Below, one piece after another: positions 1 through 64,000 of a stretch of DNA of 64,000 nt. The stretch comes from Salinibacterium amurskyense (lineage in GTDB: Bacteria; Actinomycetota; Actinomycetes; Actinomycetales; Microbacteriaceae), in contig NZ_PGFH01000001.1 in the NCBI RefSeq assembly GCF_002797685.1, forward strand, positions 1,302,001 to 1,366,000, written 5' to 3'. Each line of letters starts with the position of its first letter. Position 1 is the stretch's first letter. The notes beneath the pieces were generated by a model. That model saw only the letters and a program-made list of their open reading frames with translations. It was not told the origin of the DNA and ran no database searches. The translations under genes and the position numbers were made by a program.

Positions 1-32
1 ATGACGAGCAATTCATAGTTGTTGTCACTCAT
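1..32 (-). CDS. 5' end of a flavin/NAD disulfide-oxidoreductase-like protein (MerA-like?), cut by window edge
   Basis: Only the first 32 nt are inside the window. Read on the minus strand from the ATG at 32-30 they encode MSDNNYELLVI, which resembles the beta-strand opening of the FAD-binding Rossmann fold in pyridine-nucleotide disulfide oxidoreductases such as mercuric reductase. The ATG overlaps the last 8 nt of the upstream thioredoxin-like gene, so the two would be translationally coupled. The MerR gene next door supports a metal-reductase reading. The call rests on eleven residues plus context; any other FAD/NAD oxidoreductase is possible. Confidence 0.4.
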   Translation of the reverse strand, partial: MSDNNYELLV

Positions 33-327
33 GGCTGTTCAACTTCTCTCTCAGCTGGTCAACGGTGGGTGCGCCGGCAAAGCCAGCCGGGGTGATGTAG
101 CGGCGGCAGGCAAGCCCGACCGGGGCATCCGGCTGGGCAAAGGGATCCACACCATCGAAGAGGATGCTCGGCGACCCGCGGAACCCCACACGCTCAGCTT
201 CCTCGACCGTGTCGACCAGGTGTCGCGACACGGTTATCTGCGTGAACTCCTGTACGAGTTCGGTGATGTGCTGATCGGCAACCTTCCAGTTGGGGCAGCC
301 CTCGAAGTATTGCAGCGTGATTTCCAT
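25..327 (-). CDS. Thioredoxin-like 'DF family' protein (single Cys, GCPNW motif)
   Basis: A protein of 100 residues. I place the start at ATG 327-325 rather than the upstream in-frame start at 618, because the upstream part runs through the divergent merR gene and the fold begins at MEITLQYFEGCPNW. The motif GCPNW near residue 11 stands where thioredoxins carry CxxC. A later GSPSILFDG segment is the cis-Pro loop region, and a second Cys follows in GLACRRY. Small proteins of this type occur beside mercury or other metal resistance genes in actinobacteria. It is first in a minus-strand operon with the edge flavoprotein and diverges from merR, so a role in metal or thiol redox handling is inferred. 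Catalysis is unproven. Confidence 0.7.
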   Translation of the reverse strand: MEITLQYFEGCPNWKVADQHITELVQEFTQITVSRHLVDTVEEAERVGFRGSPSILFDGVDPFAQPDAPVGLACRRYITPAGFAGAPTVDQLREKLNSHE

Positions 328-333
328 ACCTTC

Positions 334-365
334 ACCGTAAACCTTGAAGTGCACTTGAAGGTCAA
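334..365 (-). promoter_or_regulatory. MerR-type promoter and operator for the thioredoxin-like operon
   Basis: On the minus strand TTGACC (365-360) and TACGGT (339-334) are separated by 20 bp, the over-long spacer that MerR regulators typically untwist. Inside the spacer lies a near-perfect dyad at 341-362 (arms ACCTTGAAGTG / CACTTGAAGGT, 20 of 22 positions symmetrical). The -10 ends 6 nt before the ATG at 327, so the transcript should be leaderless. Confidence 0.75.
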
Positions 366-369
366 GCGT

Positions 370-375
370 TAGTGT
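370..375 (+). promoter_or_regulatory. -10 element of merR (leaderless)
   Basis: TAGTGT lies exactly 6 nt before the merR ATG at 382, and no Shine-Dalgarno sequence is present. It abuts the divergent MerR-type operator, so autoregulation is likely. Confidence 0.5.
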
Positions 376-381
376 TGCCCC

Positions 382-780
382 ATGCTTATTGGAGAAGTAG
401 CCGATCGCCTGGATGTTCCCCGCCACACGATCCGTTTTTACGAAAAGCAAGGGCTTCTGCCCGAGCCTCAGCGACAAGGCAACGGGTATCGCGACTACGA
501 TCCCGCCGTCGTCGACCGCGTCACGTTCATCCGCAACAGCCAAGCCGCGGGGCTCACGCTCTCGGAAATCATGAGCATCCTGTCGCTGCGGGATGCCGGC
601 GAAGCACCCTGCACCCACGTCTCAAGCTTGCTCGAACACAAACTAGAAGGCGTGCAGGAGCGCCTGACAGACCTGGCGGCGCTCGAAGCGGAGCTGAAGC
701 AACTCATCCACGAGGCTAAGGCTCTCGACCCGGCCAACTGCACCGAGGCTGAGATCTGCACCATCATCCCGCGCACCTAG
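382..780 (+). CDS. MerR-family metal-responsive transcriptional regulator
   Basis: 132 residues, the usual size for metal-sensing MerR proteins. The N-terminal winged helix-turn-helix begins at the start (IGEVADRLDVPRHTIRFYEKQGLL, split here as IGEVADRLDV and HTIRFYEKQG), followed by a dimerisation helix from about residue 80 to 112. Three cysteines, C77 (APCTHV), C120 and C126, are in the regions where MerR, ZntR and CueR bind metal. Their spacing is not that of Tn501 MerR (82/117/126), so the ligand cannot be assigned safely to mercury. It diverges from the thioredoxin-like operon and shares its operator. Confidence 0.85.
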   Translation: MLIGEVADRLDVPRHTIRFYEKQGLLPEPQRQGNGYRDYDPAVVDRVTFIRNSQAAGLTLSEIMSILSLRDAGEAPCTHVSSLLEHKLEGVQERLTDLAALEAELKQLIHEAKALDPANCTEAEICTIIPRT

Positions 781-843
781 CTGTACGTGTTCGGCCCGCC
801 CCAAACAGTGTGCCAAGAAGCCGGTGAGGCGCTGGATCGCACC
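781..843 (-). pseudogene. Relic of a truncated haemoglobin gene
   Basis: These 63 nt begin directly after the merR stop codon and match 3432-3493 inside the intact globin gene at about 85% by hand alignment with one 1-nt indel. On the minus strand they read GAIQRLTGF, then after a frameshift WGGPNTYS, the same residues as in the intact gene. No further globin sequence is recognisable on either side, so this is a short gene remnant. Confidence 0.7.
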
Positions 844-888
844 TCTTTGTGTTCCTGATCGTCCTCGCCCTCAGGAAGGCGCGACCAA

Positions 889-894
889 TATAGT
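889..894 (+). promoter_or_regulatory. -10 element of the YbaK-like gene (leaderless)
   Basis: TATAGT, one base from consensus, ends 6 nt before the ATG at 901. No ribosome binding site lies between. Confidence 0.6.
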
Positions 895-900
895 GGCGTC

Positions 901-1617
901 ATGGCCATCACTAGCCCCGCAATCGAGACGCTTCGAAGTGCCGGGGTCACCTTCCGGCTCATGCCAGATGCGGATGCTCGCGGCGAGGAACCTACCGAGC
1001 AGACCCAGGGTCTGATCAAACCGTTCCATTCGGTCGCCTGCCACTGGGTGTACCGAGAGAAACTCCCGCCGGTGTTCGTAGTTCTGTCACCGGAGCGCAC
1101 AATATCTCGGCTCAAGGTTGCCGATGCGGTAGAGGACACCGTCACGTCAATCAAGCAACGAAAGCCCAGCGACGTGGCGACGCAGTTGGGCGCCAAACGT
1201 CCCCGAGGAGAACCCTCGCGGGTCATCGTGGATGCTGCTCTGGCTCGGGCATCCAGACACGTCATGTTTCCCAGCGGCGCCAAGGACCAGACGATCGTCG
1301 TCACTGCTGCGGGCCTCATCGATGGTTTCGACGCGCATATCTGGGATGTGAGCGACGTACCGGTGTTGCAACGCGTGGAGCCCTACTTCGCGGTCACCGC
1401 CGATGGGATCAGATCACTCGAGCCCGACAAGGAACACTCCCACGTGAGCCCCGGCGAAATCTACTTTCCCGAGGTTCGCCAAATCGTGAGCATCGGCGCT
1501 ACGGAGGAGTACCTGGAGTGCTTTGATCGAGCGCTCCTGGCGGCCAAGAAACATCATCCCAAGCCGTCAGAGTCCGAACACGCGGCAGCACATTTCGCCT
1601 TCCTCAAGGAACACTAA
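901..1617 (+). CDS. YbaK/aminoacyl-tRNA deacylase-like domain protein with extra C-terminal region
   Basis: 238 residues. Residues about 1-150 resemble the YbaK/ProX editing fold: a central strand region (VFVVLSPERT), a helix with KVADAVE, and near residue 130 the segment MFPSGAKDQTIVV, which looks like the family's late GxK/R-D strand. YbaK proteins hydrolyse mischarged aminoacyl-tRNA in the cytosol. Residues about 155-238 are additional, with many His and Glu residues, and I do not recognise them. It is monocistronic, with its own promoter and a strong hairpin 12 nt after the stop. The substrate amino acid cannot be predicted. Confidence 0.5.
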   Translation: MAITSPAIETLRSAGVTFRLMPDADARGEEPTEQTQGLIKPFHSVACHWVYREKLPPVFVVLSPERTISRLKVADAVEDTVTSIKQRKPSDVATQLGAKRPRGEPSRVIVDAALARASRHVMFPSGAKDQTIVVTAAGLIDGFDAHIWDVSDVPVLQRVEPYFAVTADGIRSLEPDKEHSHVSPGEIYFPEVRQIVSIGATEEYLECFDRALLAAKKHHPKPSESEHAAAHFAFLKEH

Positions 1618-1628
1618 AAGACCTGACC

Positions 1629-1657
1629 GCACGGTGGGGTGCAAAACCCCACCGTGC
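1629..1657. terminator. Hairpin terminator between convergent genes
   Basis: A perfect 12-bp stem (GCACGGTGGGGT at 1629-1640 with its complement at 1646-1657) around a 5-nt loop. There is no U-tract. Its place between convergent genes suits a bidirectional stop. Confidence 0.7.
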
Positions 1658-1696
1658 GCGGCCCCGTAGAGCTACTCGATCAGAGCTCTGCTCTTC

Positions 1697-2116
1697 CTAG
1701 CTGATGCCGTTTCCGGTGTAGGCATACATGTCGAGGTTGTCGCCGCTGACCTCAAAAGTCACGACAACGTTGGTGTCATTGTCTGCATACCAGCCGTGAT
1801 ATTCGAAGATGACCCCACCGGCGTCGTAGTCATTGTTCACGTAGTAAGCGCCGTCAACACCAAACATGTCGGCAACATCCTGATAGCTCGTGGCGTCCCC
1901 GCTGAGGTTTGCCGCCTTCAGCTCTTCGAACGCCGCCGCAAAATCATCCGCTGGGATCAGAGGGTAGTCCTCGGGGAAAGCTGTGACATCCAGCTCTTCG
2001 ACCTCAACCGTGTACCCCGAGGACTCTGCCTCAGAGGTGCTTGCGGCGCTGCTGCTGCACGCAGTCACGGTCAGAAGTAATGCGCTTGCTAAAAACAATG
2101 CTGTGAGGCTCTTCAC
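1697..2116 (-). CDS. Small secreted lipoprotein, function unknown
   Basis: 139 residues starting at GTG 2116. A signal peptide (MKSLTALFLASALLL) ends in the lipobox TVTAC with C20 as the lipidation site, followed by a Ser/Ala linker and then an acidic domain with several Tyr residues (PLIPADDFAAAFEEL near residue 50, GVDGAYYVNNDYDAGG near 90). The protein should be anchored to the outer face of the membrane. I do not recognise the domain. Convergent with the YbaK-like gene; no partner gene is close upstream. Confidence 0.75.
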   Translation of the reverse strand: MKSLTALFLASALLLTVTACSSSAASTSEAESSGYTVEVEELDVTAFPEDYPLIPADDFAAAFEELKAANLSGDATSYQDVADMFGVDGAYYVNNDYDAGGVIFEYHGWYADNDTNVVVTFEVSGDNLDMYAYTGNGIS

Positions 2117-2522
2117 AATCCCTAATCCCTAGTCGTAGTCATTCCGAATATCGATTGCGGATAACCTCTAGGCACTAACGGAGTGACGCCTCATGCACAG
2201 AGGCACCAACGCCCGCGCCGCAGCCCGGACGCGCCAGACCCCACACAGACCGGGTTGCTGCGCGCAAACCCGAGGGAGGGTGCGACCCCGGAGTGAAGTC
2301 GCTCATCGATCGGAACTCGTGAATCTCGGTGGGCGCATCCGATGGCAGCACAGTGTGGGGGAGATCGTGGACTTAGAGGTTTCAACTCATCTCTGATCGT
2401 TCATCTCTCGATGACGAGTGACGAATCCGCGCTATGGTCATCGGTAAGCACTGCCGGCGCTTACGTTGCGTGATCGTCCACTCACCCGATTGCTGGACGA
2501 CGAACTTAGACTGGACAGACAA
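2117..2522. other. 406-nt intergenic region between two divergent lipoprotein genes
   Basis: No convincing gene is present; the two overlapping ORFs near 2191-2396 have no recognisable product. It holds a small hairpin at 2188-2204 (GCCTC/GAGGC) and a dyad GTAAGC/GCTTAC at 2444-2464, just upstream of the second lipoprotein. A TAGACT -10 candidate sits at 2507-2512, 10 nt before the ATG at 2523. Confidence 0.5.
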
Positions 2523-3032
2523 ATGAAAAGACGAAAAATCTTTGGTTCACTCGTGCTTGCTCTCTCTTTAGCTGCAAGCGTAGCTGGCTGCGGCTCGCCG
2601 CCTCAGCAAGCTGAAGAAGCTTCACGCGATTTGATACAGGAGCAGCAGGATCGAAATGACCTAGCGCTCCTCGCGTATGTAGAGGCTGAACGTGCAACGA
2701 TTCCGCGCCTACTTGACCAGTACCCGGGGCTCTATAGCGAAGCACTCGTTTCTGGCTCCCGTTTTGAATCGCGAGGAGATCGCGGCATTCCCGCAGGAAG
2801 CTATTCAGTCGTCACCTTCACCTACGACTACGCGAACGCGGTCGATTGGACCGCCGCGCAAGCAGCCCTCGACACGCAACGCTCGGCTATCGATGAGCTT
2901 TGCGAAACTGCAGTGTTTCCCGCGATGAGGAGCGCAGGAATTACGGGATATCTCGGCGTCGAATACTTATATAAGGATGCTAGAGATATAGGAACTTTGT
3001 GGGATTACTCTTGTTGGGAATCCTCGTTCTAA
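2523..3032 (+). CDS. Secreted lipoprotein, function unknown
   Basis: 169 residues from ATG 2523. An in-frame TTG at 2466 would add 19 residues ahead of a textbook signal peptide, so I reject it. MKRRKIFGSLVLALSLAAS leads to the lipobox VAGC with C23. The mature part is hydrophilic and mostly helical at first (QEQQDRNDLALLAYVEAE), then has a Ser/Tyr/Thr-rich strand region (SYSVVTFTYDY) and two late cysteines (CETAVF, YSCWESS) that could pair outside the cell. Base composition is more AT-rich than neighbouring genes, with rare-looking codons near the end (TTATATAAGG), which hints at recent acquisition. Family not recognised. Confidence 0.7.
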   Translation: MKRRKIFGSLVLALSLAASVAGCGSPPQQAEEASRDLIQEQQDRNDLALLAYVEAERATIPRLLDQYPGLYSEALVSGSRFESRGDRGIPAGSYSVVTFTYDYANAVDWTAAQAALDTQRSAIDELCETAVFPAMRSAGITGYLGVEYLYKDARDIGTLWDYSCWESSF

Positions 3033-3238
3033 TTTCGACAGGTTAGTTTGACCCATCTTTTCGGAGCAGCGCTCACGGCGAGTGACACTTTCGCTACGTA
3101 TCGAGAGCCTCTGTGGTAGATGATCAGGTCAGAGAGTCTTTCGAATAGGAACAGGTATGACCAAAGCGAATTGTGTGGCGTTCTGCCGATCGATGATTCA
3201 TGCGGCCGCCAAGAGGATGCCGTACATGCACTCCGCAC
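3033..3238. other. 206-nt convergent intergenic stretch
   Basis: No gene, RNA or strong hairpin was seen. It separates the AT-richer lipoprotein gene from the globin-mscS operon. Confidence 0.4.
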
Positions 3239-3772
3239 CTAATCCTCAAATGTGTTGACCATGGCGTGCGCGGCACGGTCGAGGTACGCCCAGATTTCGG
3301 CGTCGTAGAGCGGTGGCAGTTCGAGGGTGTCGAGGGCGTTGCGCATGTGGTGCAACCAACGGTCGCGGGCATCCGGGTTCACCTTGAAGGGCATGTGGCG
3401 CATGCGGAGGCGGGGGTGTCCGCGTTCCTGGCTGTACGTGTTCGGGCCGCCCCAATACTGTTCCAAGAAACCCGTCAGGCGCTGGATCGCACCCTCAAGA
3501 TCGGGCTGCTCCGGGTACATCGGCAGCAGCACCTCATCCGTTGCCACACCCACATAGAACTCGCGCACAAGCTTCTCGAACGTGTCGCGACCGCCGATGA
3601 GTTCCCACATCGAATCGGCCGGAGCATCCGGAGTCACCGCCGGCTTCGCAATGATGCGAATCTTCGGGCGCTTCACGGGGTCAGCCGCATTGCCAGATTC
3701 AGCCGCAGTCTCGGCCACGTTCTTGGGCTCAGCCACGCCCGCAGCGTCAGCCACGTTCTCAGGATCGGTCAT
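3239..3772 (-). CDS. glbO: Group II truncated haemoglobin (TrHbO-type)
   Basis: 177 residues; the globin fold occupies about 55-177. Visible landmarks are the pre-helix GG (IGGRDTFEKLV), Y73 in REFYVGV (B10), YWGGPNTYS at 106-114 with Y106/W107 typical of group II, proximal H126 in RMRHMPF, and W139 (G8) in DRWLHHM. Residues 1-50 form an Ala/Glu/Pro-rich extension not found in most family members. Group II proteins bind O2 and handle peroxide or nitrosative stress near the membrane. The ATG overlaps the mscS stop by 4 nt, so it is the second gene of a two-gene operon. A 63-nt relic of the same gene lies at 781-843. Confidence 0.93.
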   Translation of the reverse strand: MTDPENVADAAGVAEPKNVAETAAESGNAADPVKRPKIRIIAKPAVTPDAPADSMWELIGGRDTFEKLVREFYVGVATDEVLLPMYPEQPDLEGAIQRLTGFLEQYWGGPNTYSQERGHPRLRMRHMPFKVNPDARDRWLHHMRNALDTLELPPLYDAEIWAYLDRAAHAMVNTFED

Positions 3773-4762: not shown

Positions 4763-4806
4763 GGGAGCCTAGCGAGCGACTGCTGAATAGTCGCCGCTAG
4801 GCTCCC
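4763..4806 (-). terminator. Hairpin after pepN, overlapping the mscS promoter
   Basis: The arms 4763-4781 and 4789-4806 pair over 18 bp with a single bulged A and a 7-nt loop. There is no U-tract. The outer arm contains the TAGGCT -10 (4766-4771) proposed for mscS, so the same bases serve pepN termination and mscS initiation. Confidence 0.65.
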
Positions 4807-7471: not shown

Positions 7472-7477
7472 TAGACT
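7472..7477 (+). promoter_or_regulatory. -10 element of rpiB (leaderless)
   Basis: TAGACT ends 6 nt before the ATG at 7484. No Shine-Dalgarno sequence lies between. Confidence 0.6.
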
Positions 7478-17704: not shown

Positions 17705-17710
17705 TAAGAT
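17705..17710 (+). promoter_or_regulatory. -10 element of the 57-residue membrane protein gene (leaderless)
   Basis: TAAGAT ends 6 nt before the GTG at 17717. The GGAGG in between touches the start codon, too close for a Shine-Dalgarno role. Confidence 0.5.
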
Positions 17711-17716: not shown

Positions 17717-17890
17717 GTGAACATTCTTGGATTTGTAATTTCCTTCGTGCTCTTCGTGGGCGGCATCTACATGATGGGCGAAGCCTTCTACGTTGAGGGT
17801 CTGGAGTCTGTCGTGTTCATTGGTGGCCTGCTCGTCACCACTGCGGGGGTCTTCATCCCGATCCACGTAATGAAGCGCGTAGACAGCTAG
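17717..17890 (+). CDS. Small two-helix membrane protein, 57 residues
   Basis: GTG 17717 to TAG 17888-17890. The product MNILGFVISFVLFVGGIYMM... has two hydrophobic segments (about 3-19 and 32-48) joined by an acidic turn (GEAFYVEGLES) and a basic tail (HVMKRVDS). Hydrophobic periodicity, G+C at third positions and the gap-free fit before the esterase gene (6 nt from stop to ATG) support a real gene. Family not recognised; it may be a small integral protein of unknown partner. Confidence 0.65.
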   Translation: MNILGFVISFVLFVGGIYMMGEAFYVEGLESVVFIGGLLVTTAGVFIPIHVMKRVDS

Positions 17891-20677: not shown

Positions 20678-21634
20678 TCAGCGTGTGATTGTCTCGACAA
20701 AGAGGCGCGCATAGCGAGCGCCGTCGACGCCGAGCGCGACATCGATGCGGCGAGAGCTGTTGTCAGCAGCGCCGTCTTGTTCGTGTCCTGCGGTGCGGTG
20801 GTCGACCACGGTTTGACCGCGAGTGAGCGGATCGGCCAGACTGACGCGCACCGGCACATGCACCGTGGTGAGCCCGACCGGATCGATGGCAGCGCAGACC
20901 GCACCAGCATCCCCAATATCGCCGTGTCCATCACCGGCAACGCGAACCTCGCCGCCCTTCACCGTGACAAGGTGCTGGAGCAAGCGGCCAGTGAGTTGAG
21001 CTCCGGCCTCTGCCGACGCCGCGAGAGTGGCAATCTCGGCGGGCGCAATGGTGACGGCATAGAAAACATCCAAGCCATACATCGTGATCGGAACACCCGC
21101 GGTGAGCACGATCTCCGCAGCCTCGGGATCGTGCCACGTGTTGAACTCGGCAACGGCCGTCGCGTTGCCGACAGAGGCCGAGCCGCCCATGAACACGATG
21201 CGTTCGACGTTGGCGAGCACCTCGGGGTAGGTGCGCACCAAGAGGGCGATATTCGTCATCGGGGCGAGCGGAACGAGCGTAACCGGAGTGGGGCTCGCGA
21301 GAATCTCGCGACGCAACAGCTCAACCGCATGAAGCGGAACGACCTGACGAGTGGATGCGGGCAGGCCGAGATCGGCGAGTCCATCCACGCCATGAACGTG
21401 GGCAGCCGGATGCGCGTCGGCGAGTAACGGGCGGTTGGCGCCCGCGGCTACCGGAACATCGCCGGCTCCCGCAGCATCCAGAACGGTCAAAGTATTACGC
21501 ACGACCTGCTCAAGGCTCGCGTTGCCCGCCACGCAGGTAACCGCTCGCAGATTGACACCGGGGTGTCGCACCGCCAGCATCAGCGCGAGCGCATCGTCAA
21601 TACCAGTGTCAACGTCGAGAATCATTTGCTGCAT
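20678..21634 (-). CDS. Inosine-uridine preferring nucleoside hydrolase
   Basis: 318 residues. The Ca-binding signature DVDTGIDDA (7-15) opens the chain, followed by TNIALLVRTYPE and a late His (DHRTAGHEQ) that would complete the active site. Nucleoside hydrolases split the N-glycosidic bond of ribonucleosides for purine and pyrimidine salvage in the cytosol. I take the ATG at 21634, because TAGCAT (21646-21641) lies exactly 6 nt upstream and the ATG nine bases later would leave that spacing unexplained. Specificity among inosine, uridine and others cannot be told. Confidence 0.92.
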   Translation of the reverse strand: MQQMILDVDTGIDDALALMLAVRHPGVNLRAVTCVAGNASLEQVVRNTLTVLDAAGAGDVPVAAGANRPLLADAHPAAHVHGVDGLADLGLPASTRQVVPLHAVELLRREILASPTPVTLVPLAPMTNIALLVRTYPEVLANVERIVFMGGSASVGNATAVAEFNTWHDPEAAEIVLTAGVPITMYGLDVFYAVTIAPAEIATLAASAEAGAQLTGRLLQHLVTVKGGEVRVAGDGHGDIGDAGAVCAAIDPVGLTTVHVPVRVSLADPLTRGQTVVDHRTAGHEQDGAADNSSRRIDVALGVDGARYARLFVETITR

Positions 21635-21640: not shown

Positions 21641-21646
21641 ATGCTA
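21641..21646 (-). promoter_or_regulatory. -10 element of the nucleoside hydrolase gene (leaderless)
   Basis: TAGCAT on the minus strand, 6 nt before the ATG; no Shine-Dalgarno sequence. Confidence 0.5.
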
Positions 21647-22190: not shown

Positions 22191-22196
22191 AGCCTA
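22191..22196 (-). promoter_or_regulatory. -10 element of the TPR gene (leaderless)
   Basis: TAGGCT on the minus strand, 6 nt before the ATG at 22184. Confidence 0.5.
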
Positions 22197-27673: not shown

Positions 27674-29698
27674 TTAGTTGAGGCCGCGACGGGTTAGTAG
27701 CGGCTGCAGCTCGGCGTCACGTCCGCGGAAGTCGCGGAAGGCTTCGAGCGGGTTCTTGGAACCGCCGACGCCGAGCAGCCGCGAACGGAAGCGGTCGCCG
27801 TTTTCGCGGGTGAGTCCGCCGTTTTCGGTGAACCACTCGACAGTGTCGGCATCCAACACTTCACTCCAAATGTAGGAGTAGTAGCCAGCGTCATAGGCGG
27901 AGTTTGCAAAGATGTGCTGAAAGTAGGTGCTGGAGTAACGGGGAGGCACGGCGGGGTTGTCGAGACCGACTTCGGCCAAAGCCTGCGCTTCGAAAGCGGC
28001 GACATCCGTGACATCGTCGGCAACACCGATGCGGTGCCACGCCTGGTCGATCAGGGCGGCAGCCAAGTACTCGCTCGTGAGGAAGCCTTCGTTGAAGGCG
28101 GCGCTGGCCTGAATGCGCTCCACGATCTCGCGGGGCATGGGCTCGCCGGTCTCGTAGTGCTTGGCGTAGTTGTCGAGAACCTCGGGCCAGAGCATCCACA
28201 TTTCGTTTACTTGGCTGGGGAACTCGACAAAGTCGCGGTAGGTGTTGGTGCCCGCGAACTTGGGGTACGTGACGCGGGCAAAGAGCCCGTGCAGCGCATG
28301 CCCGAACTCGTGGAACAGCGTGTTGACCTCGTCATAGGTCAGCAACGTTCTCTCACCGGCGGCCGGCTTCGGCACGTTGAGGTTGTTGGTGACAATCACC
28401 GGATGCCCGAGTAGGTCTGACTGCGAGATGAGCGAGTTCATCCAGGCACCGCCGCGCTTGGAATCCCGCGTGTAGAGGTCGAGGGTGTAAAGCCCGACTT
28501 CAGTGCCGTCTTCGTCGGTCACCTCGAAGACCCGCACATCAGGGTGGTAGGCGGGCAGATCACGGCGCTCGCTGAAAGTGACGCCGTAGAGCTTGGTGGC
28601 GGCGAAGAAAACTCCGTCACGAAGCACGCGCTCCGCCTCGAAGTACGGACGCATCTGGGTGGTGTCGACGTTGTACTGCTCGGCGCGCACCTTTTCGGCG
28701 TAGTACGCCCAGTCGGCGGCCGTCACCTCGGTGCCCGCGAGCTTTTCTAGTGCCGCGTGCTCATCACGAGCGTTGCGCGCTGCGGCAGGAGCAAGCTTGC
28801 CCAGCATGTCAGCGACCCGCTGCGGGTTCTGCGCAGTCTCATCGGCCGTGACCCAGGCGGCGTGGCTCTCGAAGCCTAAGAGAGCCGCACGCTGCGAACG
28901 AACCTTTGCGATCTCAAGCACAAGTTCGCGGTTGTCGAACTTTCCGCCGCGGATGCCACGGGTGCGCGACGCTGCCATGACCCGGCCGCGAACATCCGCA
29001 TTCTTCAACACAGAGAGGTGTGGTTGGTTGGTGGGCAGGATGAGCGTGATGAGGTACTTGCCGGTGAGCCCGCGATCATGCGCGGCGCTGGCAGCCGCCG
29101 AGATCTCGGAGGCGTCAAGGCCGTCGAGCTCGTCGATGCTGTCCACCACGACGGCGAGGTCGTTGGTGTCGGCGAGCAGGTTCTTCTCGAACTTGGTCGT
29201 GAGGGTCGAGAGCCGCGAGTTGTAGTCGCGCAGGGTCGCTTTGGCCTCTTCGGAGAGGCCAGCGCCGGCAAGCGTGAATTCGGTGAAGTAGCGCTCGACG
29301 AGGTAGCGGGCTTCGGCATCCAGCTCGGTGGAGTCGAGACCGTCATGAATGCTGCGAATGCGTTCGTAGAGGGCACTGTTGAGGCTGATGGCGTCGTTGT
29401 GCGCGGCAAGCTGGGGAGCGATGACCTCTTCGAGAGCATCCGAGGCTGCATCGCCATCGGCGGAAGTCTTGTTGAAGAAGACGATCGCGACCCGGCTCAG
29501 CAACTGGCCGCTCTTTTCGAGCGGGATCATGGTGTTCTCAAAGCTGGGGGCTTCAGCCTGCGCTGTGATCGCTTCGATCTCGGCGAGTTGCTCAGCCATA
29601 CCCTTCTCGAACGCGGGAGCGTAGTGCTCGTCTTCGATGTCGGCAAAGGGTGGCATGCCGAAGGGCAGCGTGCTGGGCTCAAAGAAAGGATTGGTCAT
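27674..29698 (-). CDS. dcp: M3-family zinc peptidase (dipeptidyl carboxypeptidase / oligopeptidase A type)
   Basis: 674 residues, normal for Dcp. The zinc motif HEFGH is at 463-467 (NTLFHEFGHALHGLF) and the third ligand E492 follows in VEFPSQVNE. The late GYYSYIWSEVLDADTV segment is typical of the Dcp/OpdA branch. There is no signal peptide, so it is a cytosolic enzyme that trims peptides left by Clp and other proteases. The start ATG lies 6 nt from TAGGGT (29710-29705) with no Shine-Dalgarno. It is divergent from a methyltransferase with only 22 bp between start codons. Confidence 0.94.
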   Translation of the reverse strand: MTNPFFEPSTLPFGMPPFADIEDEHYAPAFEKGMAEQLAEIEAITAQAEAPSFENTMIPLEKSGQLLSRVAIVFFNKTSADGDAASDALEEVIAPQLAAHNDAISLNSALYERIRSIHDGLDSTELDAEARYLVERYFTEFTLAGAGLSEEAKATLRDYNSRLSTLTTKFEKNLLADTNDLAVVVDSIDELDGLDASEISAAASAAHDRGLTGKYLITLILPTNQPHLSVLKNADVRGRVMAASRTRGIRGGKFDNRELVLEIAKVRSQRAALLGFESHAAWVTADETAQNPQRVADMLGKLAPAAARNARDEHAALEKLAGTEVTAADWAYYAEKVRAEQYNVDTTQMRPYFEAERVLRDGVFFAATKLYGVTFSERRDLPAYHPDVRVFEVTDEDGTEVGLYTLDLYTRDSKRGGAWMNSLISQSDLLGHPVIVTNNLNVPKPAAGERTLLTYDEVNTLFHEFGHALHGLFARVTYPKFAGTNTYRDFVEFPSQVNEMWMLWPEVLDNYAKHYETGEPMPREIVERIQASAAFNEGFLTSEYLAAALIDQAWHRIGVADDVTDVAAFEAQALAEVGLDNPAVPPRYSSTYFQHIFANSAYDAGYYSYIWSEVLDADTVEWFTENGGLTRENGDRFRSRLLGVGGSKNPLEAFRDFRGRDAELQPLLTRRGLN

Positions 29699-29704
29699 TC
29701 ATCT

Positions 29705-29714
29705 ACCCTATTCT
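29705..29714. promoter_or_regulatory. Overlapping divergent -10 elements (dcp / methyltransferase)
   Basis: Minus-strand TAGGGT (29710-29705) serves dcp; plus-strand TATTCT (29709-29714) serves the methyltransferase. Each ends 6 nt before its ATG and the two share two bases. Both -35 regions must then lie within the opposite gene. Confidence 0.6.
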
Positions 29715-29720
29715 CGGAAG

Positions 29721-30512
29721 ATGACGAGCGAGCGATATACCCACGGCCATCATGAAAGTGTGTTGAAGTCACACACGTGGCGCACGATCGCCAATTCGGC
29801 GGCGTACTTCGAGCCGCACCTTGAGTCGGGGCTCTCGTTGCTCGATATCGGCTGCGGGCCGGGCACGATCACAGCGGAGTTTGCCGACCGACTGGCCCCC
29901 GGCCGCGTTGTCGGGCTGGATGCCGCGCCCGCAGCGATAGAAAAAGCATCGGCTTTCACTGCCGAGAACCTGAGCTTCATCGTGGGTGATGCGTATGCGC
30001 TGCCGTTCGATGACAACAGTTTCGATCTCGTGCATTCGCATCAGACCCTGCAGCATTTGGGCGATCCGGTCGCGGCTCTCGTGGAGATGAAGCGCGTCGC
30101 CAAACCGGGCGGACTCATTGCAGTGCGAGACGTCGACTATGCGGGCACTATTTGCTTCCCCGAGTTGCCGGGGCTGAAGGTCTGGGCTGATGTGTACGAC
30201 ACGGTGCATCGCAGTAACGGGGGAGAGCCAAATGCGGGCCGCCGTCTAAAGGCGTGGGCGATGCAGGCGGGCTTGAGCGACGTCGTCACGTCAGCATCGA
30301 TCTGGAACTTCTCTGACGACACTGACCGCCAGTGGTGGGGCAGCATGTGGGAGGCGCGCGTGCTGGAATCGGCCTTCGCCGCGGACGCCCTGAGCAAGTC
30401 GCTGGCCACGCAAGAGGTACTGCAGCAGATCAGCAGCGCGTGGCGTGAGTGGGCGGATTCGCCCGAGGGCTGGATGGCAATGCCGCACGGTGAGATTCTC
30501 GCGCGAGCGTAA
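29721..30512 (+). CDS. Class I SAM-dependent methyltransferase (UbiE/type 11)
   Basis: 263 residues from ATG 29721; the longer frame upstream runs antisense to dcp. Motif I LLDIGCGPGT is at about 41-50, motif II (GLDAAPAAI) follows, motif DAYALPFDDNSFDLV is near 85-100 and motif RVAKPGGLIAVRDVD near 120. The order and spacing are those of small-molecule methyltransferases of the UbiE/Methyltransf_11 type. The C-terminal part (WWGSMWEARV) is of the kind that shapes the substrate pocket. Substrate unknown. Start codon geometry predicts a leaderless mRNA. Confidence 0.9.
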   Translation: MTSERYTHGHHESVLKSHTWRTIANSAAYFEPHLESGLSLLDIGCGPGTITAEFADRLAPGRVVGLDAAPAAIEKASAFTAENLSFIVGDAYALPFDDNSFDLVHSHQTLQHLGDPVAALVEMKRVAKPGGLIAVRDVDYAGTICFPELPGLKVWADVYDTVHRSNGGEPNAGRRLKAWAMQAGLSDVVTSASIWNFSDDTDRQWWGSMWEARVLESAFAADALSKSLATQEVLQQISSAWREWADSPEGWMAMPHGEILARA

Positions 30513-31272: not shown

Positions 31273-31335
31273 TTATTCAACAATACGCGGTTTTGGGGTT
31301 CGACGCCGCGCCGGCGCCGAACCCTCAGCAGACCT

Positions 31336-44279: not shown

Positions 44280-44304
44280 CTAGTCCAACTAGAACAACTA
44301 AAGT
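44280..44304 (+). promoter_or_regulatory. Operator candidate and -10 of the GntR operon
   Basis: CTAGTCCAACTAG (44280-44292, arms CTAGT/ACTAG) lies just upstream of TAAAGT (44299-44304), which ends 6 nt before the ATG. GGAG is in the gap and could also act as ribosome site. Autorepression of the operon is likely for YtrA-type regulators. Confidence 0.5.
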
Positions 44305-52322: not shown

Positions 52323-52922
52323 CTAGAGGTAGGCCAGCACGTCGAGTCGTACCTGGGCGACAACGGCAATGATGATGTACCCGACGATCGCGATGACGGG
52401 AACCCAGCTGTACGCTGCACCCGCGGCCTTTCGAATGCGCTTCGGCGCCGGGATCGCACCGACCTTGAAGTTACGCAGGGTCACTGCCCAGAACAGCGGA
52501 ATGGTCACCGACCACACGGTCATGCACCAGACGCACAGCGTGCCGAGGTTGAAAATGCTCTGATATGCCAGCCAGAGAATAAAGGCGAAAGCTCCTGCAA
52601 TCCCCAGGTTGAAGACCACCCAGAACCAGCTATTGAAGCGGGCACCGGCAAGAATCGCTGCGCCGACGACTACGGGGGCCATGAAAGCGATGAGCCCGAT
52701 GATGGGGTTGGGGAAGCCGAGAACGGCGCCTTGCTGGGATCCCAGGTTCGCGGCGCACTGCACTACGAGGCTGAAGTCGCAACTGAGATCGACGCCGGGA
52801 TTTTCGAGCGTATGAATCTTCTCGATCATTAGTTCGAAAGACGCCCAGAGACCAATCAGCCCGGCAAAAATCATGAAAATGGCGAGGGCGATGGGCCTGT
52901 TGCGAACCCCGGAAGCAGTCAT
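52323..52922 (-). CDS. Vitamin K epoxide reductase (VKOR) family protein
   Basis: 199 residues with five helices. The redox cysteines are C48 and C56 in the outer loop (LSCDFSLVVQC) and CVWC at 130-133 in the last core helix. It passes electrons from cysteines to quinone and reoxidises a DsbA-like partner, so it drives disulfide formation outside the cell. No thioredoxin domain is fused. GATAAT lies 6 nt before the ATG at 52922, so the transcript is likely leaderless. Divergent from rne. Confidence 0.93.
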   Translation of the reverse strand: MTASGVRNRPIALAIFMIFAGLIGLWASFELMIEKIHTLENPGVDLSCDFSLVVQCAANLGSQQGAVLGFPNPIIGLIAFMAPVVVGAAILAGARFNSWFWVVFNLGIAGAFAFILWLAYQSIFNLGTLCVWCMTVWSVTIPLFWAVTLRNFKVGAIPAPKRIRKAAGAAYSWVPVIAIVGYIIIAVVAQVRLDVLAYL

Positions 52923-53250
52923 GGAGGGATTATCGCACGCGCGCCCAGCTCACATTCTGAGAATGCGTGCGATAATGAACCGTAGTTATTCCGAGCCGCG
53001 CTCGGAACGACACCAAGAAGTCTTCCCGGGCATAGCGACCGGACCAGTTGCGCAACGCTAGTTGCGTGAGTCGAATAGCCAGTTTCGAAGTGCTGTGAGA
53101 GAGCACAACTGCAACGCGAGCCACGGGCCCGTTGCAGGACCTGAAGAATTAGTAGCGGTTCCTGAACCATAGGTTTGGTGGGGGAATAGCGCACGAGAGA
53201 GTACCCGGTAGGTGGCGCGGTCGCCTACGAGGGCTAGGAGTACACCAGCA
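52923..53250 (+). other. 328-nt divergent intergenic region and rne leader
   Basis: It holds the VKOR promoter at one end. Palindromic stretches occur near 53046-53066 (TTGCGCAACGCTAGTTGCG) and near 53210-53230 (GTAGG/CCTAC). RNase E genes of many bacteria have structured leaders that sense their own product, so this may serve that purpose. No gene seen; the ORFs crossing it lack recognisable domains. Confidence 0.4.
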
Positions 53251-56098: not shown

Positions 56099-56104
56099 TA
56101 AGGT
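56099..56104 (+). promoter_or_regulatory. -10 element of the UPF0718 permease gene (leaderless)
   Basis: TAAGGT ends 6 nt before the GTG at 56111, with no ribosome binding site between. Confidence 0.5.
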
Positions 56105-57896: not shown

Positions 57897-59280
57897 CGCG
57901 CCGCCTCCCGAAGCGGCCAACAGCATGCGATCGTTCCGCCGCACTTTTGTGTTGACCTCGGTCATTCTTGTAGTGCTGTGTGGCATCTTCTTGGCTTTGG
58001 GCTACCTTCAGGGTCCCAAACTCTCAAGTGCGCAGGTCGACGCGGATGCCGTAGTCACGTCGTCCGATCAAACCTTGCGGTTGTTTGCCAATCAGGCCAT
58101 CGCTGCCGTCGATCCGGCTGCGGTCACGGTCGAGCCGGCGATCGACGCCACCGCATCGAGCGAGGGAGACCTCATTTCGGTGCAGTTCGGTCAAGCGCTC
58201 GACTACAACACGGAGTACACCGTGAGCGTGGAGGGCGTCACGACTCTGTCGGGAGGCCCCGAGTCGACGCTGACGTACTCGTTCACGACGGGGGAGCCGG
58301 AGCTCTACTACCTCGACCGTGGCGAGCCCAACGACGAGATCATTCGCACGGGGCTCACGTCTCAAGACCGCACGGTGGTGTTCGCTGGCGTGGGAATCCA
58401 AGAATTTATACCCGTGGGCGATGTCGTTGCGTTCACGACCGCCGCGGCTGATCGCACGGGCACCCTGACGCTAGCGAACCCCGATACCGGGGTGACGGAG
58501 CAAGTGCTGTTGCCCGAGGCCGGTGAGGTTGCCGATTTGGATGCCACACGTTCGGGCTCGCTGTTGGGCTTCACTATTTCGAGTGAAGATCCTGGCCCTA
58601 TCCCCACGATCTCGCACACGCTGTACACGGTTGACCTCGATCGAGGCCGCGATGTGGTTGCCGTCAACGACTTAGACGGTGAGCCGATGCGTGTCACGGG
58701 GTGGCAGTTTGTGCCCGGCACGGCAGAAATCGTGGCAGTGACCACCGAGAGCACGCTGGTGCGCGTCGACACCACGACGGGTCTCATCATTCCGCTCGGC
58801 GGCTACTTCGACTTCGATCGCGTCTCAGCAGACGGTTCTACGGCGATCGTGAACGACACGACAGGCAGTGCGGCCGTAACGCTCGCTGATGGTACCGAGG
58901 TGCGGCTGCATCCTTCACGTATCGACGGCGAACAACCTTTTATCGGTCAAACTGATGCCGATGCAGACGGCAACCTTGTCGCCAAGATGGTGTTGGTGGG
59001 GGAGACCGGGGCGACGTTCAGCAGCGTTCTTGCGTTCGACAACGGCGAGGAGTCGCGCGTTCTTTACCAAACGGTTGGCGACAAGGGCGCCATTCTCGAT
59101 TTTGAGGTTTCGCCGAACAACCAGTTCGTTGCTGTCGAAGTTCAGCCCAACGTGGCGACTCTCGATTCAGACCAATACGTGATGAATCCGCGACCGCAAA
59201 GCACCACAACCTATCTCGTGGAGATTGCCACGGGAGCCGTTACGCGCAGTGTTGAAGGCTTTGGTGCCGTCTGGCGCTAG
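57877..59280 (+). CDS. Membrane-anchored Ig-like/beta-propeller protein of the metal permease operon
   Basis: 467 residues from GTG 57877, 20 nt inside the previous gene. One N-terminal helix (FVLTSVILVVLCGIFLALGYL, near 26-46) anchors it with the rest outside. Residues about 55-140 look like a Big_5 (Ig-like) domain with FGQALDYNTEYTVSVEG. The remainder is repeated beta-blade segments (TVDLDRGRDVVAVNDLDGE, VRVDTTTGLIIPLGG, DFEVSPNNQFVAVE) as in TolB or YncE propellers. Role unknown; the tight overlap links it to the two permease genes. Confidence 0.7.
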   Translation: MSHISISAPPPEAANSMRSFRRTFVLTSVILVVLCGIFLALGYLQGPKLSSAQVDADAVVTSSDQTLRLFANQAIAAVDPAAVTVEPAIDATASSEGDLISVQFGQALDYNTEYTVSVEGVTTLSGGPESTLTYSFTTGEPELYYLDRGEPNDEIIRTGLTSQDRTVVFAGVGIQEFIPVGDVVAFTTAAADRTGTLTLANPDTGVTEQVLLPEAGEVADLDATRSGSLLGFTISSEDPGPIPTISHTLYTVDLDRGRDVVAVNDLDGEPMRVTGWQFVPGTAEIVAVTTESTLVRVDTTTGLIIPLGGYFDFDRVSADGSTAIVNDTTGSAAVTLADGTEVRLHPSRIDGEQPFIGQTDADADGNLVAKMVLVGETGATFSSVLAFDNGEESRVLYQTVGDKGAILDFEVSPNNQFVAVEVQPNVATLDSDQYVMNPRPQSTTTYLVEIATGAVTRSVEGFGAVWR

Positions 59281-59283
59281 ATT
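59278..59283 (+). promoter_or_regulatory. -10 element of the ACT-domain gene (leaderless), overlapping the upstream stop codon
   Basis: TAGATT ends 6 nt before the ATG at 59290. Its TAG is the stop codon of the preceding gene. Confidence 0.5.
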
Positions 59284-59289: not shown

Positions 59290-59691
59290 ATGACCGCTGT
59301 TTCTGATCTCAACGAATTGCTCTCGACCATGGAGCCTCACCTCAACGAGGGCGTCTACGTCTTCGCCACGGTGAAGTCTCTCGCCGACGTCGAGGCGGAG
59401 TCGATCGTGGCGGTCATGCGCGAGACAGAGGGCATGTCAGTCGTACTGTCCGAGGCGGATGCGGTGCGCCAGGGTATCCCGCACGAGTTCCGTTCATCCT
59501 GGATCACTCTCACGGTCACCTCGGCGTTAGAGGCAGTGGGGCTCACGGCAGCGTTCGCGCAGGCTCTCGGTGACGTGCAGATCAGCTGCAACGTGATTGC
59601 CGGGCATCATCACGATCACTTGTTTGTGCCTGTGGAGTCAACGGATGCCGCCCTCGCGGCCCTGCGGTCGCTGCAGTCGACCGCGAACTAA
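59290..59691 (+). CDS. ACT-domain protein
   Basis: 133 residues. The beta-alpha-beta pattern fits paired ACT domains: EGVYVFATVKSLADVEAESIVAVMRE, SSWITLTVTSALEAVGLTAAFAQALG and VQISCNVIAGHHHDHLFVPVESTDAALAAL. Small cytosolic proteins of this type bind amino acids or related ligands; the HHHDH run may bind metal. No catalytic domain is fused, so its target is unknown. Convergent with the DUF4031 gene, 19 nt away. Confidence 0.82.
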   Translation: MTAVSDLNELLSTMEPHLNEGVYVFATVKSLADVEAESIVAVMRETEGMSVVLSEADAVRQGIPHEFRSSWITLTVTSALEAVGLTAAFAQALGDVQISCNVIAGHHHDHLFVPVESTDAALAALRSLQSTAN

Positions 59692-59989: not shown

Positions 59990-59995
59990 AGCCTA
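59990..59995 (-). promoter_or_regulatory. -10 element of the DUF4031 gene (leaderless)
   Basis: TAGGCT on the minus strand, 6 nt before the ATG at 59983. Confidence 0.5.
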
Positions 59996-60023
59996 ATTGA
60001 CGGCCAATCTGCAGGCGGAGGTT

Positions 60024-60208: not shown

Positions 60209-60297
60209 TGATCCTTGGCGTGTGCTGGGCAAAGCCCGCAGAGATCGCCACAAGCTTCAGTAGTTCTAGCTATTCAATCGTTAAGTAAGGGTCAAAA

Positions 60298-60606: not shown

Positions 60607-60637
60607 CTGCTGACGGACGTAAAGGACTTCTAGACAG

Positions 60638-60889
60638 ATGGCACATAAAAAGGGCGCAAGCTCCACCCGTAACGGTCGTGACTCCAACGCGCAGCGCCTC
60701 GGCGTAAAGCGCTTCGGCGGCCAAGAGGTTCTCGCCGGCGAGATCATCGTTCGCCAGCGTGGCACCCACTTCCACCCCGGCGTTAACGTCGGTCGTGGCG
60801 GCGACGACACCCTGTTCGCTCTCGCAGCGGGCGCGGTTCAGTTCGGTGCAAAGGGCGGCCGCAAGGTCGTCAACATCGTTTCCGCGTAA
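60638..60889 (+). CDS. rpmA: 50S ribosomal protein L27
   Basis: 83 residues. The N-terminus [17 protein letters not shown] reaches toward the peptidyl-transferase centre; no leader peptide that would need cleavage is present. [11 protein letters not shown] and [10 protein letters not shown] are diagnostic. Together with L21 it belongs to the conserved rplU-rpmA-obg unit. Confidence 0.98.
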
Positions 60890-60942
60890 CTTTCCGCGGC
60901 ATAAACTCCGCGTCACCTGCGTGCAGGGGGCGTAAAAGCGAA

Positions 60943-60962
60943 GAGCGAGCTTCGGCTCGCTC
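60943..60962 (+). terminator. Hairpin between rpmA and obg
   Basis: Perfect 8-bp stem (60943-60950, 60955-60962) with a UUCG tetraloop, an unusually stable fold. It has no T-run and probably attenuates or protects rather than stops completely. Confidence 0.6.
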
Positions 60963-60985
60963 TCGCCATTTAAGATGGCAGGCGT

Positions 60986-61007
60986 CTGCTGTCTAAAATG
61001 ACAGCAG
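60986..61007 (+). promoter_or_regulatory. Hairpin in the obg leader
   Basis: Perfect 8-bp arms CTGCTGTC/GACAGCAG with loop TAAAAT, 38 nt before the obg start. Purpose unknown; the loop could be a -10 read as DNA. Confidence 0.4.
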
Positions 61008-61045
61008 AATATTTTCAGTAGCTCACGAGAACAGGAGGAACCATC

Positions 61046-62590
61046 GTGGCATCGTTCGTCGATCAGGTAACTCTTCACCTCGTGGCAGGCCACGGTGGTA
61101 GCGGTTGTGTGTCCGTTAAGCGCGAGAAGTTCAAGCCTCTCGCCGGCCCTGACGGTGGCAAGGGCGGTGACGGTGGAGACATCGTTCTCGTCAGTGACCC
61201 GCAGGTAACGACCCTTCTCAACTACCACCGCTCACCGCACCGCAAGTCTCAGCACGGGCAGCCCGGTCAGGGCGACCTCAAGGCGGGTACCGCCGGTGCA
61301 GAGATGGTTCTTCCCGTTCCTGTGGGCACTGTGGTGCGCGATGGCGACGGCGAAGTGCTCCTCGATATGGATGCTCCGGGAATGCGACTTGTCGTAGCTC
61401 CTGGTGGCCAGGGTGGGCTCGGTAACGCTGCACTCTCATCCACGAAGCGCAAGGCTCCCGGCTTCGCGCTGCTCGGTACTCCCGGCTTCGAGGGTGATAT
61501 TCACCTCGAGCTCAAGACAGTGGCCGATGTCGCTCTGGTGGGTTACCCCTCAGCGGGTAAGTCCAGCCTCATCGCTGCGATGAGCGCGGCAAAGCCGAAG
61601 ATCGCGGACTACCCGTTCACGACCCTTCACCCGAACTTGGGTGTTGTTGAGTCGGGCGAGATCCGTTACACGATCGCCGACGTTCCCGGCCTCATCGAGG
61701 GTGCGAGCGAGGGTAAGGGACTCGGGCTAGAGTTCCTACGTCACGTTGAGCGTTGTACCGCTCTGCTTCACGTTCTCGACTGTGCAACCCTCGAGCCTGG
61801 TCGCGACCCAATCAGCGACCTCGACATCATTCTCGGTGAACTCGCTGCGTATCCTGTGCCTGAGGGTCAGAAGCCGCTTCTCGAGCGTGAGCAAATCATT
61901 GCTCTCAACAAGGTCGATGTTCCTGACGGAAACGACCTCGCCAACCTCGTCAAGGCTGAGCTCGAAGAGCGCGGTTACCGCGTGTTCGAAGTTTCCGCTG
62001 TGTCGCGTCACGGTCTTCGCGAACTCTCGTTCGCCCTCGCGGCCCTCGTGGTCGCTGAGCGTGAAGCCCAGATCGCTGAGCCGGTCAAGGAACGCATCGT
62101 TCTTCGTCCGCGCGCCGTCAACGCCAAGGACTTTGTTGTCAAGGTCGAGGGTGGCACGTACGGCAACGTGTATCGCGTTGTGGGAGAGAAGCCCGAGCGT
62201 TGGGTCGCTCAAACAGACTTCGTGAACGAAGAAGCCGTTGGTTACTTGGCTGATCGTCTCGCGCGCCTCGGTGTTGAAGACCAGCTCTTCAAGTCCGGTG
62301 CCGTTCCTGGCTCCACCGTCATCATCGGCGCGGGCGGAGGTGTTGTCTTCGACTGGGAGCCCACACTGTCATCCGCTGCCGAATTGATCGTTGCGCCGCG
62401 TGGTACCGACCCACGCCTCGACGATAACCCTCGTGAAACGAACCGCAGCCGTCGTCGCAACTACCTTGAGCGTATGGACGCCAAGGCTGCAGCGCGTGCA
62501 GAGCTCGATTCTGAGCGCGAGGCAGGCGTCTGGCGTGACGATGAGGGCTTCGCTATTCAGCGCGACGATGAGACAGAGGATCGTGAATAA
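61046..62590 (+). CDS. obg: Obg-family GTPase
   Basis: 514 residues from GTG, with AGGAGG 5-10 nt upstream. The Gly-rich Obg fold ([11 protein letters not shown], about 34-44) spans residues 1-157. The G domain has GYPSAGKSS (166-174), switch [11 protein letters not shown] and NKVD. An OCT domain follows ([20 protein letters not shown]) and an acidic/basic tail. Obg binds the 50S subunit and couples ribosome assembly to nutrient state. It lies downstream of rplU-rpmA and runs into proB. Confidence 0.97.
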
Positions 62591-63380
62591 CAAGCCCACC
62601 GTGCGTGCCGAGATTCCTCGTGCGCGCCGCATCGTTGTCAAAGTCGGCTCGTCGTCGGTGAGCGGTGCCAACGTGGGTCAGATCAGCGCTCTGGTTGATG
62701 CTCTTGTGTCAGCACATGCAGCGGGATCTGAAGTCATTCTTGTTTCTTCCGGTGCTATCGCCACCGGTATTCCGTTTCTCAAGCTCGATAGTCGTCCGAC
62801 TGACCTCGCGACTCAGCAGGCTGCCGCGGCAGTTGGCCAGAACGTGCTGATCTACCGTTACCAAGAGAGCTTCGACCGCTACGGCGTTGTCGCCGCGCAA
62901 ATTTTGCTCACGGCCGGGGACATGGAAAACCCCACCCACCACAGCAACGCTCAGCGTGCGCTCGAACGACTTCTCGGGCTCAAGATCTTGCCCATTGTGA
63001 ACGAGAACGACACGGTTGCGACCCACGAGATCCGTTTCGGCGACAATGACCGCCTCGCGGCGTTGGTTTCCGTGCTGGTGCGGGCGGATGTGCTTGTGTT
63101 GCTCTCGGACATTGATGCGCTGTACACGAAACCTCCGTCTGATCCGGGTGCCGAGCGCATCAGTTTCGTCCCGTTCAGCAACGACCTCAGCGACGTTACT
63201 TTTGGTGACATCGGGGCGGCCGGCGTCGGTACCGGGGGAGCAGGCACGAAAGTTGCCGCTGCTAAGCACGCTGCTGCAGCTGGAATCCCCGTGCTCCTTG
63301 CCGAAACGGGCAGTGTCGCAGCGGCTCTCGCCGGGGAAGAAATCGGCACCTGGTTCGAGGCAGACACCCTCCCGTTGTAA
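62583..63380 (+). CDS. proB: Glutamate 5-kinase
   Basis: 265 residues if started at GTG 62583, which overlaps the obg stop by 8 nt and has AGAGG upstream; an ATG at 62568 would add five residues. The amino-acid kinase fold shows [35 protein letters not shown] and a C-terminal [17 protein letters not shown]. The PUA domain of E. coli ProB (367 residues) is absent. It phosphorylates glutamate as the first step of proline synthesis; proA follows after 39 nt. Confidence 0.95.
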
Positions 63381-63407
63381 CGTTCTTCGGCCTCGGGTTT
63401 GCGCCGC

Positions 63408-63413
63408 TACACT
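63408..63413 (+). promoter_or_regulatory. -10 element of proA (leaderless)
   Basis: TACACT ends 6 nt before the ATG at 63420, giving proA its own possible leaderless transcript in addition to read-through from proB. Confidence 0.45.
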
Positions 63414-63419
63414 CTGACT

Positions 63420-64000
63420 ATGGTTGATTCGGCAGTTACCGCTCTCTCTATTGACGACAAGCTTCGTGCAGCGCGCGCAGCTTCGCGCACGCTGGCAACG
63501 GCCACAACGGTGCAGAAGAATGCGGCGCTGGAAGCTATCGCCGCTGGAGTCGTTGCGAATGCCGACCGCATCGTTGAAGCTAACGCGCTTGACCTCAAGC
63601 GGGGGCAAGAAAATGGCATGACGGTCGGACTTCAAGATCGGTTGCGCCTCACTGCGGAACGAATTGACCAGTTATCCGCTGCGGTGCTCGAGATCGTGGA
63701 GCTCGCTGACCCCGTGGGCACTGTCGTGCGGGGTTCGGTGCTGCCCAACGGGTTGTCGGTAGCGCAGACCCGTGTTCCCTTCGGCGTGATCGGCGCTATC
63801 TACGAAGCACGCCCCAACGTCACGATCGATATTGCTGCGCTCGCCCTCAAGAGCGGCAACGCGGTGATGCTGCGCGGAGGCTCTGCGGCCGAAGACTCCA
63901 ACCGCGTTCTCGTTGGCGTCATCCAATCGGCGCTATCCAGCGTGAACATCGACCCGGCATCCGTGCAGACGGTTGATGAGTTTGGCCGCGATGGGGCTAA
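63420..64000 (+). CDS. proA: Gamma-glutamyl phosphate reductase, 5' part
   Basis: The frame is open from ATG 63420 to the window end (193 codons), so the C-terminal half including the catalytic cysteine is outside. Visible family segments are the N-terminal helices (AARAASRTLATATT), VPFGVIGAIYEARPNVT and AALALKSGNAVMLRGGSAAEDSN, which bind NADPH. It reduces glutamyl phosphate to the semialdehyde, the second step of proline synthesis, acting on the ProB product. Confidence 0.96.
   Translation, partial: MVDSAVTALSIDDKLRAARAASRTLATATTVQKNAALEAIAAGVVANADRIVEANALDLKRGQENGMTVGLQDRLRLTAERIDQLSAAVLEIVELADPVGTVVRGSVLPNGLSVAQTRVPFGVIGAIYEARPNVTIDIAALALKSGNAVMLRGGSAAEDSNRVLVGVIQSALSSVNIDPASVQTVDEFGRDGA

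Follow-up and report, generated by a model that had tools for sequence, protein, structure and literature searches.

TANNNT hexamers six or seven nucleotides ahead of start codons as putative -10 boxes of leaderless genes in Salinibacterium amurskyense

According to Zheng et al. (2011, PMC3160421), TA-led genes carry a TANNNT hexamer the first T of which is located about 12 bp ahead of the start codon, and the Actinobacteria row of this survey comprises 86 of 89 genomes with an average of 19.2 percent of the genes (range 2.3 to 29.8). For Mycobacterium tuberculosis about 500 leaderless genes were mapped by Cortes et al. (2013, PMC3898074), and about a quarter of the genes for which there is a primary start site are leaderless. 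In that study, a TANNNT box is located 7-12 bp upstream of the mapped start sites, there is no -35 consensus and both ATG and GTG serve as start codons. Here we analyzed a 64,000-nucleotide stretch of Salinibacterium amurskyense DNA (the window; positions 1302001-1366000 of contig NZ_PGFH01000001.1 in a genome of 2.78 Mb, GC content 0.62), for which an earlier note, made from the sequence alone, had listed 15 starts with a TANNNT-like hexamer (one of them GATAAT) exactly 6 nt ahead of the start codon. The host can be assigned to the actinobacterial family Microbacteriaceae because its ClpX is 86-91 percent identical to that of named Amnibacterium, Cryobacterium, Labedella, Agromyces and Curtobacterium strains.

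When we compared these starts with the TA-led genes of Zheng et al. (2011, PMC3160421), we found the same motif and the same spacing and no difference in kind. The main peak places the first T at -12 and a second peak is located at an offset of 7, offset being the number of nucleotides between the end of the hexamer and the start codon. The M. tuberculosis genes (PMC3898074) share the box, the lack of a -35 consensus and the use of ATG and GTG, but the 5'-ends were mapped in that species whereas those given here are predicted. The present case is a further instance of a known actinobacterial architecture, and the general phenomenon has already been described for the phylum. Clavibacter and Leifsonia, two other genera of the Microbacteriaceae, are not named in the main text of PMC3160421, and a literature search (leaderless combined with Microbacteriaceae, Clavibacter or Micrococcales), which left most subscription papers outside, did not return a paper that would by its title be a start-site map for this family.

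All 15 hexamers of the earlier note are present, each exactly 6 nt ahead of the named start codon (Table 1). For quantification, start codons were picked motif-blind by a codon model that ignores the upstream sequence, and the hits at each offset were compared with those at the other offsets between 0 and 44. Among the 58 motif-blind starts of the window, TANNNT was found at offset 6 in 10 cases (p about 1e-13) and at offset 7 in two (p 0.03), and the other offsets averaged 0.15. As independent test set we used 20 stretches of 20 kb each from elsewhere in the same contig (the sample). Here, 39 of 340 starts carried the hexamer at offset 6 (p = 8e-42) and 13 at offset 7 (p = 6e-9), while the remaining offsets averaged 1.49 and none of them exceeded 5. 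Inside genes, in-frame ATG, GTG or TTG triplets were preceded by TANNNT in 5 (offset 6) and 11 (offset 7) of 5,875 cases. These data bear out the claim that the count is far above chance. However, the odds of a random match had been put near 1 in 64, and this figure overstates chance since TANNNT occurs only once per 534 bases on one strand of the sample. The exact spacing of 6 nt holds for the main peak, but 7 nt is also used and two such starts of the window, 4758(-) and 31272(-), had been missed. Moreover, the motif-blind caller recovered 10 of the 15 listed starts but not the other five, which indicates that the list had partly been picked with the motif in view: 327(-) was not called, the hexamer of 52922 is GATAAT rather than TANNNT, and for 29721, 56111 and 63420 another start was chosen.

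Next to the position of the hexamer, the anatomy of the starts carrying it is informative. Combining the sample (52) and the window (12), we obtained 64 starts with TANNNT at offset 6 or 7 (element starts), and 52 of them use ATG, 12 GTG and none TTG. Shine-Dalgarno sequences (at least 4 matched letters) precede only 2 of the 52 element starts of the sample but 112 of the 288 other starts (p = 5e-8), so that the claim that most of these starts lack one was upheld. In the sample, the element was most frequent at divergent starts (27/110), less frequent at same-strand starts more than 50 nt away from the upstream gene (14/109) and rarest at same-strand starts within 50 nt of it (11/120); one further start is located at a stretch edge outside these three neighbor classes. 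Thus, the statement that operon-internal starts lack the element was too strong. No -35 consensus was seen across the 64 element starts. Counted from the end of the hexamer, 62 percent of them have G as second base and 44 percent C as sixth base; for the offset-6 class the latter is the base preceding the start codon. In M. tuberculosis, C at -1 and T at +2 were reported to be the most frequent bases at start sites (PMC3898074).

The spacing was also followed in orthologues from Microbacteriaceae genomes of different genera. Unless stated otherwise, 30 loci from 40 genomes per gene were inspected for an in-frame start near the aligned N-terminus with TANNNT at offset 6 or 7, and the own locus was counted except for the M3 peptidase. 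The methyltransferase set started from 30 loci of 60 genomes and was reduced to 23 when seven weak matches (L160-L166) were dropped; for the M3 peptidase, 10 of 32 loci (10 of the 32 being named loci) were dropped because there was no match near the N-terminus or the upstream sequence was lacking. The element was present in 20 of 23 loci of the methyltransferase (29721), 20 of 22 of the M3 peptidase (29698), 25 of 30 of DUF4031 (59983) and 19 of 30 of RpiB (7484). In other words, the spacing is kept in 63 to 91 percent of the loci for these four genes. Obg, the own start of which has AGGAGG, was chosen as Shine-Dalgarno control, and here the element was found in 0 of 30 loci and a Shine-Dalgarno sequence in 23 of 30. 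ClpX (12 loci) and ClpP1 (9 loci) did not exhibit the element at these offsets either, and three relatives of the TPR protein (22184), all named loci, lacked the box. In the methyltransferase loci listed, the start codon coincides with the aligned own start or precedes it by up to 30 nt, and the box shifts along with the start codon, as would be predicted for selection on the box-to-start distance. As a separate observation, Obg or DUF4031 frames of some family genomes were reported with one internal TGA (L256, L280 of genome G018, L267 of genome G021, and genome G009).

The placement of the -10 box, the scarcity of Shine-Dalgarno sequences, the excess at divergent starts, the use of ATG and GTG and the spacing kept in orthologues together make leaderless genes the best reading, and with it the suggestion of the earlier note that transcription begins at the start codon. 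We estimate the probability that these are ordinary actinobacterial leaderless starts, with a sigma-70-type -10 box at a distance of 6 or 7 nt from the start codon, at about 0.94. According to this reading, TANNNT would be the -10 box recognized by the housekeeping sigma factor, and its distance of 6 (or 7) nt would let the RNA polymerase start the message at the first base (A or G) of the start codon or one base before it. The resulting mRNA would have neither a 5'-leader nor a Shine-Dalgarno sequence, and the ribosome would have to recognize a 5'-terminal AUG or GUG. The GGAG in the 6-nt gap at 17717 and 44311 would fall outside such a leaderless mRNA.

Several observations weigh against this reading. 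All start codons are predictions, and the absent -35 consensus fits the published mycobacterial promoters but adds no support. Seven of the 30 RpiB loci have no box at offset 6 or 7 even when NANNNT is accepted, and among the orthologues of VKOR (52922) TANNNT was found at these offsets in just 4 of 30 loci, own included. The RpiB and VKOR loci indicate an occasional loss of the trait or of the strict motif. When the same blind caller was applied to named loci around clpX throughout the phylum (62 of 80 used), 17 + 4 of 146 genes of the Microbacteriaceae carried the hexamer at offsets 6 + 7, and this same peak in the named loci of the family speaks for the reading. The corresponding values were 5 + 1 of 123 for the Micrococcaceae and 7 + 5 of 162 for the Mycobacteriaceae and Nocardiaceae, where a single other offset reaches 3; for all the groups compared, averages at other offsets ranged from 0.1 to 0.6. 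Mixed other actinobacteria yielded 4 + 9 of 223 with another offset reaching 6, and the Streptomycetaceae (16 loci) 0 + 2 of 185, which is almost no peak. At this sample size, the own family exhibits a clear peak, whereas some other groups have a weak one or none. The gene caller may perform poorly in the loci of the Streptomycetaceae and the mixed group.

Alternatively, the -10 box might be real but the message might start 1 to 5 nt upstream of the start codon, which would give it a very short leader. The second peak at offset 7 (13/340) is consistent with this possibility, and for that class it overlaps with leaderless transcription. However, three times as many starts have the hexamer at offset 6, and of the 340 starts 0 to 2 fall on each of the offsets 8 to 12, so that we consider a short leader rather unlikely. 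A one-base leader would in practice behave as leaderless.

The TA of the hexamer might also be part of a stop codon (TAG, TAA) of the upstream gene, placed at a distance that is common in operons. The hexamer at 59290 is such a case: its TAG does end the preceding open reading frame (ORF) at 59280, which makes this start weaker, and 2 of the 52 sample cases (L018 at 4897, L021 at 12351) exhibit the matching distance. The TAG of the hexamer at 382 doubles as stop codon of an ORF ending at 372, the reality of which is doubtful. However, the element is commonest at divergent starts, where the called upstream gene is on the other strand, and this refutes the stop codon as general cause; the final T of the hexamer is left unexplained too. 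This origin is highly improbable. Equally hard to maintain is a role of the hexamer as ribosome-binding signal of a leadered mRNA: it does sit at the Shine-Dalgarno position, but it corresponds to the -10 box which PMC3160421 and PMC3898074 describe for the phylum, and its frequency is lowest at close same-strand starts although translation would require a signal there as well. Finally, chance combined with start codons chosen to fit the motif might account for the five listed cases not recovered as TANNNT starts, but for the class as a whole it is refuted by the motif-blind starts of the sample (39 at offset 6 vs. a mean of 1.49 elsewhere), although single cases may be wrong.

Table 1. Hexamers of the window considered as -10 boxes (positions on the window; offset in nt; the last column gives the outcome of motif-blind start calling)
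Hexamer	Positions	Strand	Offset	Start	Gene	Motif-blind calling
TACGGT	334..339	-	6	327	DF-family (seleno)protein-like	not called as gene by codon model
TAGTGT	370..375	+	6	382	MerR/CadR-type regulator (MerR family match)	recovered
TATAGT	889..894	+	6	901	238-aa protein	recovered
TAGGCT	4766..4771	-	7	4758		found; absent from earlier list
TAGACT	7472..7477	+	6	7484	ribose-5-phosphate isomerase RpiB, TIGR02133	recovered
TAAGAT	17705..17710	+	6	17717	57-aa orphan ORF	recovered
TAGCAT	21641..21646	-	6	21634	nucleoside hydrolase PF01156	recovered
TAGGCT	22191..22196	-	6	22184	TPR_5 protein	recovered
TAGGGT	29705..29710	-	6	29698	M3 peptidase	recovered
TATTCT	29709..29714	+	6	29721	methyltransferase	29760 favoured
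TATTGT	31280..31285	-	7	31272		found; absent from earlier list
TAAAGT	44299..44304	+	6	44311	GntR-type regulator PF00392	recovered
GATAAT (extended -10-like, preceded by TGC)	52929..52934	-	6	52922	VKOR	
TAAGGT	56099..56104	+	6	56111	ArsP_1-type permease PF03773	56195 favoured
TAGATT (candidate)	59278..59283	+	6	59290	ACT-domain protein	recovered
TAGGCT	59990..59995	-	6	59983	DUF4031	recovered
TACACT	63408..63413	+	6	63420	aldehyde dehydrogenase family	63399 favoured

Some of the individual starts deserve comment. The 327(-) gene scored 58.9 bits against NF049942, which is under the cutoff of 70, and it faces the regulator gene starting at 382. TTGACC (365-360) is located 20 nt upstream of TACGGT and a 22-nt near-palindrome (341-362) overlaps the spacer, an arrangement which we take to be that of MerR-controlled promoters. 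Thus, the region 334-365 is a probable MerR-type operator, and this layout supports TACGGT as -10 box of 327(-). For the 238-aa protein (901-1617), which has a leaderless-type start, there was no Pfam or NCBIfam match. The 57-aa ORF at 17717 has no family match and the evidence for a gene is weak, so that the gene itself is uncertain. At 21634(-) one codon-model run favored 21625 instead, and the Pfam match of the 63420 product to aldehyde dehydrogenases is slightly under the family cut-off. Rfam searches of the window at gathering thresholds yielded nothing beyond two tRNAs.

GATAAT at 52922 requires separate consideration. In the sample, CANNNT, GANNNT and AANNNT were not enriched at offset 6 (5, 3 and 6 cases vs. 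means of 5.0, 4.7 and 3.7), and GATAAT as a general variant was therefore rejected. For the VKOR gene, however, orthologues speak in its favor: NANNNT is present at offset 6 in 20 of 30 loci (own included), at offset 7 in 8 and at any other offset in at most 6. Among the 25 boxes listed, 14 read CATAAT or GATAAT and 23 have a G two places ahead of the box. Thus, the proposal of GATAAT as a putative -10 box is supported at 52922, for VKOR alone, but does not hold genome-wide. The gap between VKOR (52922, minus strand) and rne (53212 or 53251, plus strand) contains a perfect 12-nt inverted repeat (52929-52940 / 52965-52976), which can be read as a back-to-back pair of TGCGATAAT extended -10-like boxes, of which one would serve the putatively leaderless VKOR and the other faces rne. 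Starting from the rne-facing box, the rne message would have a leader of about 230-270 nt. The arm of this box, ATTATCGCA, is present in the roughly 170 nt preceding VKOR in 16 of the 30 family loci (own included), a near variant in 6 more of them, and ATTATCGCA again in 3 of 3 further family loci. When the 170 nt upstream of 26 order-level VKOR relatives outside the family (L290-L315) were scanned, neither ATTATCGCA nor TGNNATAAT was detected, and a looser near variant, ATTATGTCA, was present in one of these loci.

The start codons of 29698(-) and 29721(+) are located on opposite strands 23 bp apart (22-bp gap, window 29696-29723), and their putative -10 boxes overlap and share one TA (29709-29710). 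Bidirectional promoters of Escherichia coli were described to have a spacing of 18 bp most often, and spacings of 10 and 23 bp are frequent as well (PMC12825309). With its start sites as predicted, the present geometry would fall in the 7-25 bp range of bidirectional promoters with overlapping -10 boxes. In its 23-bp distance between predicted start sites and its overlapping boxes it resembles the bidirectional promoters of E. coli and Salmonella (PMC12825309, PMC10268837). It differs from them in that both predicted start sites are start codons, and the word leaderless does not occur in PMC12825309. It is conceivable, at slightly below even odds in our judgment, that the pair forms a leaderless bidirectional promoter, at which both messages would begin at the start codons, a polymerase bound in one orientation would exclude the other and the two genes would be expressed in alternation. 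If so, the -35 region of each gene would fall inside the coding sequence of its partner. In 12 of 13 other-genus loci having both genes, peptidase and methyltransferase both carry the element at offset 6 or 7, and the start-to-start distances differ from 23 bp as far as they were read. The 23-bp form might thus represent a conserved arrangement in compressed form, since the other loci keep both elements at other distances.

Bidirectional promoters as an enriched class were also considered and rejected. The 23-bp pattern (start codon, 6 nt, TA-sharing boxes, 6 nt, start codon) had 338 matches in 150 family genomes vs. 101 for the reversed control, and the 18-bp pattern had 170 vs. 170. The 338 matches are not read as an excess because a chance alternative explains about that number. 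We estimate that roughly two matches per genome would arise from single leaderless starts that happen to have a CAY opposite to them, which is about what was seen. From 35 pattern loci fetched (5 of the own genome, 30 others), 11 had frames of at least 60 aa with a positive score in the own-genome codon model on both sides; in the own genome, coding frames on both sides were found at 2 of 5 pattern loci.

In the course of the ClpX comparison, we observed that public contigs labelled Vibrio cholerae 35D (L034) and Bifidobacterium breve (L081) encode ClpX proteins 76 and 74 percent identical to that of the window. At least the label of the Vibrio cholerae 35D contig looks wrong.

For the family, the orthologues provide a clean comparative demonstration that the putative -10 box and the start codon move together. 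In this organism, TANNNT 6-7 nt upstream helps genome annotation since about one in seven genes has its start codon marked in this way (52 of the 340 motif-blind starts).

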